Origin: Alphaproteobacteria bacterium
GTDB taxonomy: Bacteria > Pseudomonadota > Alphaproteobacteria > GCA-2731375
Reading direction: 5' to 3'
NCBI GenBank assembly: GCA_029936195.1
Contig: JAPYUH010000005.1
Coordinates: forward strand, 15,821 to 49,881
Length of the DNA: 34,061 bases
The position numbers and the translations under genes are program-made. Positions 29,364-34,060 of the stretch are shown here, piece by piece; position 1 is the stretch's first letter; each line of letters starts with the position of its first letter. Below the pieces are notes generated by a model. It worked only from the letters and a program-made list of their open reading frames with translations, was not told the DNA's origin and did no database searches.

Positions 29364-30281
29364 CTATAGCCCCGGCGTCACGGGGCGGGGCGATTGACGG
29401 CCGCTCCCCAAGGCGGCTCCTTTATGAGCCAAATCGCCGGCCGGCAGGGCGCGGTAGCGCAAGACGGTGACAAATTCCAGGCGGGCCCAGTCCACAAGGG
29501 GTTGAATGCGGGCCTCGCCATCGGCAATGGACGAAATGATGCCCACGGGCAGACCCGGCGGAAAGACGCCCGCATGGCCCGAGGTGACCACCCTGTCGCC
29601 CGGATTGACCTTGGCGTTGGCGGGCAGAAATGTCAGGCGGGGGCGGATCGAATTATCGCCGGCCAGGACGGCGCGATGCCGGGATTGTTCCACCACCACC
29701 GGCACGCGGGAGTTTAAATCGGTCAACAGCAGCAGGCGCGAGGAACGCTGCCCCACCTCCACCACCCGGCCGGCCAGGCCCAGGGCCGTGGTCACCGCCT
29801 GGCCCGCTTCCACGCCATCGCGGCGGCCGGCGTTGAGCAAGGCCGATTGCACGAACAGACCGCCCGTATCGCCGATCACCCGGGCGGAAATGAACATGGG
29901 CGCGGGATCGTGCGCCGGGTTCAGCAGGGCGCGCAGGTTGGCGTTTTCCTGTTCCAGATTGCGGGCAATGGTCTGCCATTTCGCCAGGCGCGTCACCTGC
30001 TCGCGCAAGGCCTGATTCTCGCGGTTGGTTTGCCAGAAATATTCAATTTCCGAGAGGGCATGGCGGGCTGATATGACCGGCGCGCTCAACACTTCAAGCA
30101 CCGGGGCGATCGCCTCCACCGCCAGGACGCGCAGCTGGCGGACGGCATCACCGTGCGTTTTACCCAAGACCAATAGGGCCAGGGCGGCGGCTACCAGCAG
30201 TCCGAAGCCGAAGCGCTGCGCCACCCCCCGCGCCGGAGCGGCAACCTTGGCTAACGTCGATAATCTTGGCCCTTTCGCCAC
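29364..30281 (-). CDS. mreC: Rod shape-determining protein MreC
   Basis: A 305-residue bitopic protein with a short cytoplasmic tail, a membrane helix (about 25-42), a coiled coil (about 80-118, NQALREQVTRLAKWQTIARN) and the two beta-barrel domains of MreC (ISARVIGDTGGLFVQSALLNAGRRDGV; GDRVVTSGHAGVFPPGLPVGII). It organises PBP2/RodA along the cell cylinder. The start is GTG 30279-30281. The sequence upstream is a perfect 12-bp tandem duplication that also duplicates the likely ribosome site (GGGAC). It lies 98 bases after mreB, a longer gap than the others in the operon. Confidence 0.94.
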   Translation of the reverse strand: MAKGPRLSTLAKVAAPARGVAQRFGFGLLVAAALALLVLGKTHGDAVRQLRVLAVEAIAPVLEVLSAPVISARHALSEIEYFWQTNRENQALREQVTRLAKWQTIARNLEQENANLRALLNPAHDPAPMFISARVIGDTGGLFVQSALLNAGRRDGVEAGQAVTTALGLAGRVVEVGQRSSRLLLLTDLNSRVPVVVEQSRHRAVLAGDNSIRPRLTFLPANAKVNPGDRVVTSGHAGVFPPGLPVGIISSIADGEARIQPLVDWARLEFVTVLRYRALPAGDLAHKGAALGSGRQSPRPVTPGL

Positions 30282-30346: not shown

Positions 30347-31426
<1,080 letters not shown>

Positions 31427-31456: not shown

Positions 31457-31465
31457 ATTATCACA
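31457..31465 (-). promoter_or_regulatory. Candidate extended -10 promoter element of mreB
   Basis: The minus strand reads TGTGATAAT, a TGn-extended -10 box, about 30 bases before the mreB GTG start. The -35 region 17 bp upstream (CTTAAG) is a poor match, which is tolerated by extended -10 promoters. Confidence 0.35.
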
Positions 31466-31546
31466 CTTTGTCATCACGTCTTAAGCTGACACCACTCTTA
31501 ACTGAATCCCATTAACCAAGCCTTACGGTTAACCTTTTCCCTCGCC

Positions 31547-31612
31547 GTGGTCGCGCCGTGTTCGCGCTGTGTTCGCACTGTGGTCGCACCGTCGTCGCAC
31601 CGTCGTCGCACC
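31547..31612. repeat. Six 11-bp tandem repeats upstream of mreB
   Basis: Six contiguous 11-bp units run GTGGTCGCGCC, GTGTTCGCGCT, GTGTTCGCACT, GTGGTCGCACC, GTCGTCGCACC, GTCGTCGCACC. The last two are identical and the others differ at one to four positions. The array ends 121 bp upstream of the mreB start. The period is close to one DNA helical turn, so any protein bound to the units would face one side of the helix. Confidence 0.92.
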
Positions 31613-31960
31613 CGCAAAACAGCCATAAACTTCCTTTGAGACAGCTTTGAGGCAACGAACGGGCGAAATCCGACAGGGATCAGACAACCGGTTCAGCAAG
31701 ACGGATACGGTAAACCGGGCAAAATTACCCGATTCCAAATAGTTATTACGACTAATTCGACCAGTACGGCAAGAAGAATATGGGCCAGACGCCGGTATGT
31801 CCGTGCGAAATTCGCAATCGAAACTCTGAACTTGGACATTTGCGTGCCGGGGGCTCTGGACTCCGGATTTTCATTCACGTTATGTAGGGTCCCAACTGGC
31901 CCTGCAAATGCCGGGCCCGGTTGACGGCGTCAGTTAGTGGCGTGAGAGGAGTAAACGCAC

Positions 31961-33259
31961 ATGCAGTTGGCAACACCGGAAGCCGTGGGCCTGTCGGGTC
32001 CGCGCCTTGAAAAGTTAACCGCGTGGATGGCCCATCAGGTGACCTCCAACCGTTTGCCGGGGCTGTCGGCCATGGTGCACCGGCGCGGTCAAAACGCCTA
32101 TTTCAACTGTACGGGGCAAATGGACCGGGAGGCCGGCAAGCCGGTCGCGGAGGACACCATCTTCCGCATTTATTCCATGACCAAGCCGATCACGGCGGTG
32201 GCGGCGATGATCTGCTACGAGGACGGCCAGTTTCAACTGGACGACCCGATCGCCAAGTTCCTGCCCGAATTCGCCGAGATGCGGGTCTGGGACGGCAACC
32301 ACAATTCTCCCAATGGTGAATTGAATACCGTGCCCGCCGAGGGCTATATCACCGTGCGCCACCTGCTAACCCATACAGCCGGGTTCAGCTATGAATTCAT
32401 GCAGGCGGGCCCGGTGGAGGCCTATTACCGGAAACACAAAATCACCTTCAACCCCAGCCGCCAGACCGAGGGCGGCGCCGACCTGGCCGCCATCACCTCC
32501 CGTCTGGCCATCGCGCCCCTGGTGCGGCAGCCGGGCAGCGGCTGGGGCTATTCCGTCTCCATCGATGTGCTGGGCCGCTTGATCGAGGTCTGGTCGGGGC
32601 AAAGCCTGGACCGTTATTTTGACGAGCGGATCTTCCAGCCCCTTGGCATGACCGACACCGCCTTCCATGTGGCGGGGGACAAGCTGGACAGATTTGCCGC
32701 CTGCTACGAACCCTCGGAAGGCGGCGGACTGGGCCGGTTGAATTCCACCGACGCCGTGATCCGCAAAAGCGACGGCATCGGCCTGAAACTCAGCGACGCA
32801 CCGGTGGGCAGCCGCTATACGCAAATGCCGGAAACCCTGTCGGGCGGCGGCGGGCTGACCGGCACCATTGGCGATTACGGCCGGTTTTGCCAGATACTGT
32901 TGCAAAAGGGCGAACTGGACGGCCAGCGCATATTGGGCCGCAAGACGGTGGAGTTCATGGCCGTCAACCACCTGCCCGGCAACCAGGACATGGCCGGCAT
33001 GGGCCAACCCATCTGGAGCGAATCCAGTGCCGAGGGCATCGGCTACGGCCTCGGCATGGCCGTGGTGATCGATGCCCCGACAACACAGCTGATCCGTTCC
33101 AACGGCGAATATTTCTGGGGCGGCGCCGCCTCCACCGCCTTCTGGATCGACCCGGCCGAGGAGATGTTCGTGGTCTTCATGACCCAATTGACGCCCTCGT
33201 CGTTCTACCCCATCCGCGCCGAGTTGCGCGTGGCGACCTATCTGGCATTGGTGGATTAG
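31961..33259 (+). CDS. Serine hydrolase, class C beta-lactamase / esterase-like
   Basis: A 432-residue protein of the beta-lactamase-related (PF00144) family, which includes esterases, D-aminopeptidases and lovastatin esterase-type enzymes. The nucleophile motif SxxK is Ser72-Met-Thr-Lys75 (IYSMTKPITAV). The YxN-like Tyr is in GWGYSVSIDVLG near residue 197, and the third motif is replaced by WGGAAST near the C-terminus. No signal peptide is visible, so it is probably a cytoplasmic esterase and not a resistance beta-lactamase. ATG 31961 has GAGAGGAG upstream. It is a single gene followed by a weak terminator. Confidence 0.9.
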   Translation: MQLATPEAVGLSGPRLEKLTAWMAHQVTSNRLPGLSAMVHRRGQNAYFNCTGQMDREAGKPVAEDTIFRIYSMTKPITAVAAMICYEDGQFQLDDPIAKFLPEFAEMRVWDGNHNSPNGELNTVPAEGYITVRHLLTHTAGFSYEFMQAGPVEAYYRKHKITFNPSRQTEGGADLAAITSRLAIAPLVRQPGSGWGYSVSIDVLGRLIEVWSGQSLDRYFDERIFQPLGMTDTAFHVAGDKLDRFAACYEPSEGGGLGRLNSTDAVIRKSDGIGLKLSDAPVGSRYTQMPETLSGGGGLTGTIGDYGRFCQILLQKGELDGQRILGRKTVEFMAVNHLPGNQDMAGMGQPIWSESSAEGIGYGLGMAVVIDAPTTQLIRSNGEYFWGGAASTAFWIDPAEEMFVVFMTQLTPSSFYPIRAELRVATYLALVD

Positions 33260-33374: not shown

Positions 33375-33695
33375 TCACCGCTTGGCAATATCTCCCAACC
33401 CTTTCAGGGACACCGGTGGTCTATCTGGAAATTCCGCCACCAAGTTCAGGCGCCCGCCCAGGGCGGCGACATATCGGCTCAAGGTTGTGAGCAACAGATC
33501 GCTGCGTTTTTCAAGCTTCGAAACCGCGTTCTGTTTGATGCCGAGTATGCCCGCGACCTCCTCCTGTGTCAGCTGATGGGCCTGACGCAGGGCGCGCAAG
33601 GTCAGTTCCTCCGCCACCATGTCCGAAGTCATTTGCTCCACCGCCTTTCGCCGCTTCGCCGGCAATGCCTTCATGAGGTCATCAACGGTTCTCAT
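33375..33695 (-). CDS. XRE-type helix-turn-helix antitoxin (HigA-like)
   Basis: A 106-residue protein with an XRE helix-turn-helix at about 36-62 (LRQAHQLTQEEVAGILGIKQ, NAVSKLEKR), preceded by a basic helical segment (MKALPAKRRKAVE) and followed by a short strand region. It lies 26 bases after the toxin-like gene on the same strand, the toxin-first order typical of HigBA-type pairs. It should bind and neutralise the toxin and repress their operon. ATG 33695 has GAAGGA upstream; GTG 33719 is less likely. Confidence 0.88.
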   Translation of the reverse strand: MRTVDDLMKALPAKRRKAVEQMTSDMVAEELTLRALRQAHQLTQEEVAGILGIKQNAVSKLEKRSDLLLTTLSRYVAALGGRLNLVAEFPDRPPVSLKGLGDIAKR

Positions 33696-33721
33696 CGTTC
33701 CTTCTCCATTTTTTCCCACAG

Positions 33722-34060
33722 TCAGCCCGCCGATTTCAGCGCCGCCAAATGTGCATCAAAGCTTTGGTCGGCGGTTTTGATCAGTTTCCTGTAAAACGCC
33801 TTTTCGTTCTTCCCCTGCTTGTCGCCGCAAACGAGGACGATGCCCCGGCGTTTGGGGTCAAAGGCAAATGCGGCGCGCCAAACACTATTGTCGGCATCAA
33901 AGCGCAGCTCCTTCAAATTGGCGTGCCGCGAACCCTTCAGGGTATCTGCCTTCGGCCGCGAAAGCGCCGGCCCGAACACCTTCAGCACGCCCATCAGCTT
34001 GTCCTGAACGTCAGGAGACAGCGCATCGAATTCGGCGTCGAATTGTTTTCCCAAAACCAC
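33722..34060 (-). CDS. RelE/HigB-family toxin (PF05973-like), 5' end at window edge
   Basis: At least 112 residues of a RelE/ParE-superfamily toxin of the phage Gp49-like group. The visible order is QFDAEFDALSPDVQDKL, the conserved GSRHANLKELRFD, VWRAAFAFDPKRRGIVLVCGDK and the C-terminal YRKLI. Such toxins cleave mRNA on the ribosome. GTG 34058-34060 could be the start, but relatives have a few residues before this point, so the true start may lie beyond the window. It is the first gene of a toxin-antitoxin pair with the XRE protein downstream. Confidence 0.85.
   Translation of the reverse strand: MVLGKQFDAEFDALSPDVQDKLMGVLKVFGPALSRPKADTLKGSRHANLKELRFDADNSVWRAAFAFDPKRRGIVLVCGDKQGKNEKAFYRKLIKTADQSFDAHLAALKSAG

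Follow-up and report, generated by a model that had tools for sequence, protein, structure and literature searches.

Does a tandem array of 11-bp units upstream of mreB control this gene, or did it arise by duplication in a spacer that tolerates such changes? We addressed this question in a 34,061-nucleotide stretch of an alphaproteobacterial genome (the window, on contig C482 of an assembly of 4,585,388 bases in 540 contigs). The array, at 31547-31612, consists of six contiguous 11-bp units with starts at 31547, 31558, 31569, 31580, 31591 and 31602, which read in order GTGGTCGCGCC, GTGTTCGCGCT, GTGTTCGCACT, GTGGTCGCACC, GTCGTCGCACC and GTCGTCGCACC. It lies inside the 534-bp intergenic region between mreB and a divergent serine hydrolase gene, with the GTG start of mreB 119-186 bp downstream. 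The locus contains the following features:

29364..30281, minus strand: mreC, the next gene downstream of mreB (PF04085 MreC, E 6e-36)
30380..31426, minus strand: mreB, GTG start at 31426 (PF06723 MreB_Mbl, E 1.7e-151; 96-98% identity within the genus)
31457..31484, minus strand: sigma-70-like promoter match between the array and mreB, a consensus match only (9/12 positions; one found against 0.4 expected)
31512..31534, minus strand: block B, an imperfect dyad (GGTTAACC-N7-TTGGTTAA) between the array and mreB, from an alignment of 12 upstream regions and a pattern
31545..31612, no strand assigned: tandem array (TRF period 11, 6.2 copies, 89% matches, score 80)
31625..31653, minus strand: middle block, partly conserved, just beyond the array, from the alignment
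31742..31761, minus strand: block A (GTCGAATTAGTCGTAATAAC), conserved, 20 bp, from the alignment and a pattern search with one site per genome in 11/11 genus genomes
31872..31888, plus strand: promoter-like stretch before the hydrolase gene, 260 bp from the array, read by eye (L002 and L007 have a similar one, and none was seen in L004)
31961..33259, plus strand: divergent serine hydrolase (Pfam Beta-lactamase, PF00144, E 5.1e-66), which shares its intergenic region with mreB

An earlier note on this DNA had described six imperfect 11-bp units upstream of mreB, and all of them are present in the phase that it gave. We shuffled the 534-bp intergenic region 2000 times by dinucleotides, and the TRF score of 80 was never reached (maximum 51); 30 shuffles of the whole window gave a best score of 68. 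Within the window, the array has the top score among 13 TRF rows. We also sampled tandem repeats in 224,272 bases of the same genome, made up of the window and 20 other stretches, of whose bases 9,872 are N. A single other array in this sample reaches 80, two copies of a 24-bp unit (score 87). None of the other 23 rows with a score of at least 50 has five copies; the mreB array alone has five or more. With head-to-tail contiguous copies of a unit in the range of about 10-60 bp, it has the form of a minisatellite.

Two further properties had been ascribed to the units, namely that each spans one helical turn and that their divergence falls toward one end. A turn of B-DNA measures about 10.5 bp; the 11-bp unit slightly exceeds it, and sites would thus drift by about 17 degrees per unit, so that the spacing is near-helical and not exactly helical. 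The distances between neighbouring units are 1, 2, 1, 2 and 0, and therefore only the last pair is identical: the proposed gradient is weak and comes down to this terminal pair.

Is the array a conserved feature of mreB loci? We compared the loci of 11 genus genomes and 3/4 other family genomes, with 1.5 kb on either side where the contig allowed (L001-L014, L001 being the window's genome, G000), together with additional mreB loci from 16 others of the class. In the 600 bp upstream of mreB, the best identity at a lag of 11 bp was 51/57 in the window's genome. The array was absent from the 10 other genus genomes and the three family genomes (L002-L014, 19-26/57) and, over genus, family and class, from all 29 other mreB loci (18-27/57). 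Family genome G014, in which mreB is split over contigs, gave no match in a family-wide pattern search. The comparison used one genome per species, and the lack of the array in 10 congeners establishes no more than lineage specificity.

A scan of the window's own genome for the repeat, as had been proposed, gave a similar picture: a search with the 68-bp array, which lone scattered units, or a regulator that has one site, would escape, returned no second copy and a sole extra match of 14 bp (E 3.29). Wider searches were run with several patterns. A three-unit pattern matched once among 398 phylum genomes (G013, a sister-genus genome introduced below, not being among them), and this match was the window's own genome. 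A looser degenerate pattern gave two matches among 289 class genomes, the own genome and G013, which belongs to another genus of the same family. The family-wide pair pattern returned G000, G013 (five match rows at four sites) and one one-mismatch match in an apparently coding stretch of G002, and a different two-unit pattern, applied to 21 genomes, returned G000 and, with one mismatch, a single different site in G002. The strict unit pair was not found in viral contigs. Thus, among the genomes examined, only the window's species has the array.

What is conserved upstream of mreB? In the alignment of 11 genus loci and L012, block A ranks with the best conserved parts of the mreB upstream region. 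It occurs with at most one mismatch in all 11 genus genomes (up to three were allowed in the search), about 220-340 bp upstream of mreB in 11/11 regardless of the neighbouring gene, and 200 bp upstream in L012, which belongs to the sister genus. The seven bases before it read CTTGCCG in the window, where the other loci of the alignment have CTTGCGG. Block A may be a promoter or leader element of mreB. A similar block B is found in 10/11 genus loci and is not seen in L002 or L012. TTAA half-sites belong to cell-cycle regulators such as CtrA, and block B resembles the half-sites of CtrA-type regulators, with a spacing that differs from TTAA-N7-TTAA.

The gene upstream of mreB varies within the genus. 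Read by eye, it is a serine hydrolase gene in L001, L002, L004 and L007; it is what we take to be an ilvC-like gene in others among L005, L006 and L009-L014, and it is neither of the two in L003 and L008. At the contig end, the window also holds a pair of minus-strand genes for Gp49-like (PF05973) and HTH_3 (PF01381) proteins at 33375-34060, presumably a HigBA-like toxin-antitoxin pair.

In the same alignment, the middle block and block B are separated by a gap that varies in length and sequence, and the array fills this gap. The distance from block A to mreB is 334 bp in the window's genome versus 218-314 bp in nine genus relatives and 200 bp in L012; in the tenth relative, L009, whose upstream region carries an inserted repeat element, it is 339 bp, versus 333 bp in the window's genome, when a shorter anchor is used. 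From block A to block B, the window's genome measures 223 bp versus 129-216 bp in eight relatives. Since these spacings stay near the range of the relatives, the array neither breaks nor greatly displaces the conserved elements. The corresponding spacer of L005 (genome G010) holds an unrelated perfect duplication of 17 bp (TRF score 66), which indicates that this spacer is duplication-prone and weakly constrained.

The insertion in L009 (1334-1435, the mreB leader of G006) is, by eye, a repeat element of about 100 bp with inverted ends. Forty candidates were scored per genome, so that the high counts are lower bounds: the element has at least 42 matches in G010, at least 41 in G001, at least 40 in G006 and at least 36 in G009, followed by 21 in G003, 13 in G005, 6 in G008, 3 in G004 and 1 in G000, with none in G002 and G007.

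The units had been thought suitable for cooperative binding of a regulator or for DNA bending. Because the array is absent from relatives, has no second copy in the genome and lies apart from the conserved blocks, cooperative binding as a conserved feature of mreB regulation is not supported, and we rejected a genus-conserved regulatory array of mreB (19-26/57 at lag 11 in L002-L014 versus 51/57 in the window's genome). Bending of the A-tract type is out, since no A/T run in the array is longer than 2; it likewise has none of the helix-phased A-tracts of an A-tract-curved array.

The array is probably (at roughly 0.63) a young, species-specific minisatellite, born of slippage and without conserved function. 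A short GC-rich 11-mer in the fast-evolving spacer upstream of mreB would have been duplicated head to tail, through replication slippage or unequal exchange, and the units would then have gathered point changes. Any effect on mreB would most likely come from a small shift in spacing or leader length. Three observations point to tandem duplication in a weakly constrained spacer: (i) the identical terminal pair; (ii) the restriction to one lineage; and (iii) the unrelated duplication that a sister genome carries in this spacer. The recent expansion by slippage suggested in the earlier note fits the data, slippage itself being the presumed mechanism. No conserved regulatory function appears to be needed to explain the array. 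It resembles bacterial minisatellites and VNTR loci in its short imperfect head-to-tail intergenic units, its occurrence in one lineage and its identical terminal pair; strain-to-strain variation in copy number is a feature of those loci, whereas here each species is represented by one genome. Two observations sit less easily with a minisatellite of purely local origin. The array is among the two highest-scoring in the sampled DNA of its own genome, and one of its units agrees at 10/10 positions with repeats beside two integrases of G013 that have the same 11-bp period, a match that pure local slippage leaves as a coincidence.

What are the G013 repeats? In this genome the 10-mer GTGGTCGCAC, at 11-bp spacing, adjoins two PF13356 tyrosine integrases. 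Upstream of the first, which combines PF13356 and PF00589 (Arm-DNA-bind_3 and Phage_integrase), 3.1 copies of GTGGTCGCACG stop 27 bp short of the ATG; the second is preceded by GTGGTCGCACGATGGTCGCACG. Two further sites, TGGTCGCATATTGGTCGCAC, are found about 46-48 bp 3' of the tRNA-Lys(CTT) and tRNA-Arg(CCG) genes. The region upstream of the first integrase also contains a 48/48 copy of the 3' part of tRNA-Arg(CCG), and that of the second a 43/46 match to tRNA-Lys(CTT). Judged by sequence, this layout is what one would expect of islands whose attL and attR both carry arm sites; the fit is exact for the Arg pair and looser for the Lys pair. We infer that the repeats are putative arm-type sites of the integrases. 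The stretches concerned (L075:4363-4396, L080, L130:6276-6420 and L131:2554-2701) appear to be parts of tRNA-associated islands, whose two integrases share the GTGGTCGCAC repeat.

The reading of these repeats as arm sites has wider support. We surveyed the upstream regions of 43/45 fetched PF13356 loci (L083 was left out because it falls below the family cut-off, L091 because its domain is partial) and found a perfect 9/9 direct repeat in 6 regions at lag 11 and in 11 at lag 12, compared with 0 and 1, respectively, of 43 control stretches and none at either lag in letter shuffles (20 rounds). At other lags, such repeats occurred in 3/43 regions at lag 15 and in 2 each at lags 10 and 22. Among plasmid-borne relatives (10 of 20 among the matches listed; 2581 records matched), 8/10 examined carry a lag-11 repeat of at least 8/9, with differing sequences. 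A comparable arrangement is known from the alphaproteobacterial element ICEMlSymR7A, with five IntS P/arm-type motifs (TGKTGGTATC) in a 283-bp attP, according to the accessible part of PMC11963761.

Could the mreB array itself be made of such sites? Its units would then be the recognition sequence of the PF13356 arm-binding domain, left by or captured from a mobile element and later amplified. The six units agree with GTGGTCGCAC at 9, 8, 9, 10, 9 and 9 of 10 positions with the same period, and thereby form direct repeats of 10-12 bp with the integrase motif, binding being putative in both genomes. The repeats beside the two G013 integrases and the corresponding tRNA genes, the enrichment at lags 11 and 12 upstream of PF13356 genes and the lag-11 repeats of the plasmid-borne relatives all speak for this origin. 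The surroundings of the array speak against it: there is no tRNA gene within 1.5 kb on either side of mreB (L001), a search for PF13356 found no such integrase on the mreB contig, and the lone PF13356 match in G000 lies on another contig with different, 12-bp-type repeats. The flanks bear no likeness to the G013 sites, and the spacer outside the array, compared with the four G013 sites on both strands, scored no higher than the best of 100 shuffles. The native arrays that we saw have 2-3 units, not 6. Moreover, clean excision of an element should leave an attB, and such an attB lacks arm sites. Compared with integrase arm-type (P/P') sites, the array thus shares the period and the 10-mer of the G013 repeats and departs from them in unit number, integrase, tRNA and flanks.

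A similar viral array also counts against this origin. The viral contig L074 carries GTTGTCGCACG-type repeats, and no integrase was recognised near its array by eye among the listed ORFs of at least 120 aa in 14.3 of its 52 kb. The array at L074:3636-3740 comprises about 3.6 copies of the 11-bp GTGCGACAACC, followed by a 12-bp inverted repeat, and lies 3' of an ORF that looks ssb-like by eye.

How surprising is the shared 10-mer? By a rough estimate, the unit of an array agrees with a given 10-mer, whatever the phase or strand, with a probability of about 3e-5 to 5e-5; with the looser pattern, this rises to about 3.4e-4. We found no period-11 array in about 180,000 readable bases of the own genome outside the window, nor in 193,116 bases from partly overlapping loci of relatives, which bounds the rate of such arrays only at roughly 10 per Mb. 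If the rate were as high as this bound, a single looser match or a few of them would be unsurprising among 289 genomes; since the G013 match came from the degenerate pattern on these genomes, a chance match is possible class-wide, the bound being a rough one. In the 14 other family genomes, about 0.2 looser matches and about 0.03 exact 10-mers would be expected at the same bound. The coincidence with G013 is therefore mildly surprising, no more. We consider it unlikely that the mreB units are arm-type sites left by or captured from a mobile element; the fuller version, in which a chromosomal array of GTGGTCGCAC-type arm sites was captured upstream of mreB and amplified to six, with the integrase binding there as a regulator or a decoy away from any attachment core, seems to us improbable to the same degree.

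Alternatively, the array may regulate in this species alone. A protein would cooperatively bind the phased 11-bp units, one molecule per DNA turn in the manner of BldC/RdfS-type winged-helix proteins, and tune mreB or the divergent hydrolase gene. The regular near-helical phasing of six units and their position between divergent genes are in keeping with such a role. There are precedents in the accessible parts of two papers: BldC assembles into filaments in which neighbouring molecules are one DNA turn apart (PMC11963761), and in Mycoplasma, genes with variable numbers of upstream repeats differ in expression, which tracks the repeat number (PMC5179023). The array is like BldC operators in having direct repeats about one DNA turn apart, but the BldC repeats described in the accessible part of PMC11963761 are 9 bp, versus 11-bp units here, and the array lacks conservation. 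The absence from the examined relatives, the missing second site, the conserved elements outside the array and the lack of A-tracts count against this alternative as well, and we regard it as doubtful.

Less likely still is that the array acts within a transcribed mreB leader, either at the RNA level or through a leader peptide translated from it. Transcription starting near block A would include the array, which is also crossed by a 69-aa open frame starting with TTG. However, folding of each strand as RNA gave less stable structures than shuffles (z +2.62 and +1.67), which counts against a selected hairpin and led us to reject an RNA leader structure, and the window has no Rfam match at gathering thresholds. 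No Pfam family matches the 69-aa frame at E 0.001, the array part of the frame is found in none of the aligned relatives, and a period of 11 is not a multiple of 3. A consensus fold of 9/12 leaders (L002, L009 and L012 left out) showed little covariation, with two-sided changes in 2/44 pairs and a covariation term of +1.07. The accessible part of PMC4287350 lists no mreB start site useful for this locus.

That the array is an assembly or sequencing artefact is hardly credible: the genome is indeed in 540 contigs, but the array is only 68 bp, shorter than a typical sequencing read, five of its six units differ from their neighbours or each other, and its flanks are conserved blocks in normal order.

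What does the array mean for the organism and its relatives? Taken as a minisatellite, it is ordinary and could serve at most to mark strains; it illustrates that repeats in front of a key gene are not necessarily regulatory. Were the unit recognised by the integrase of a mobile element, a binding site of that element would be wired upstream of a core cell-shape gene. Beyond this locus, direct repeats at 11-12 bp just upstream of PF13356 integrases may allow simple prediction of arm sites.
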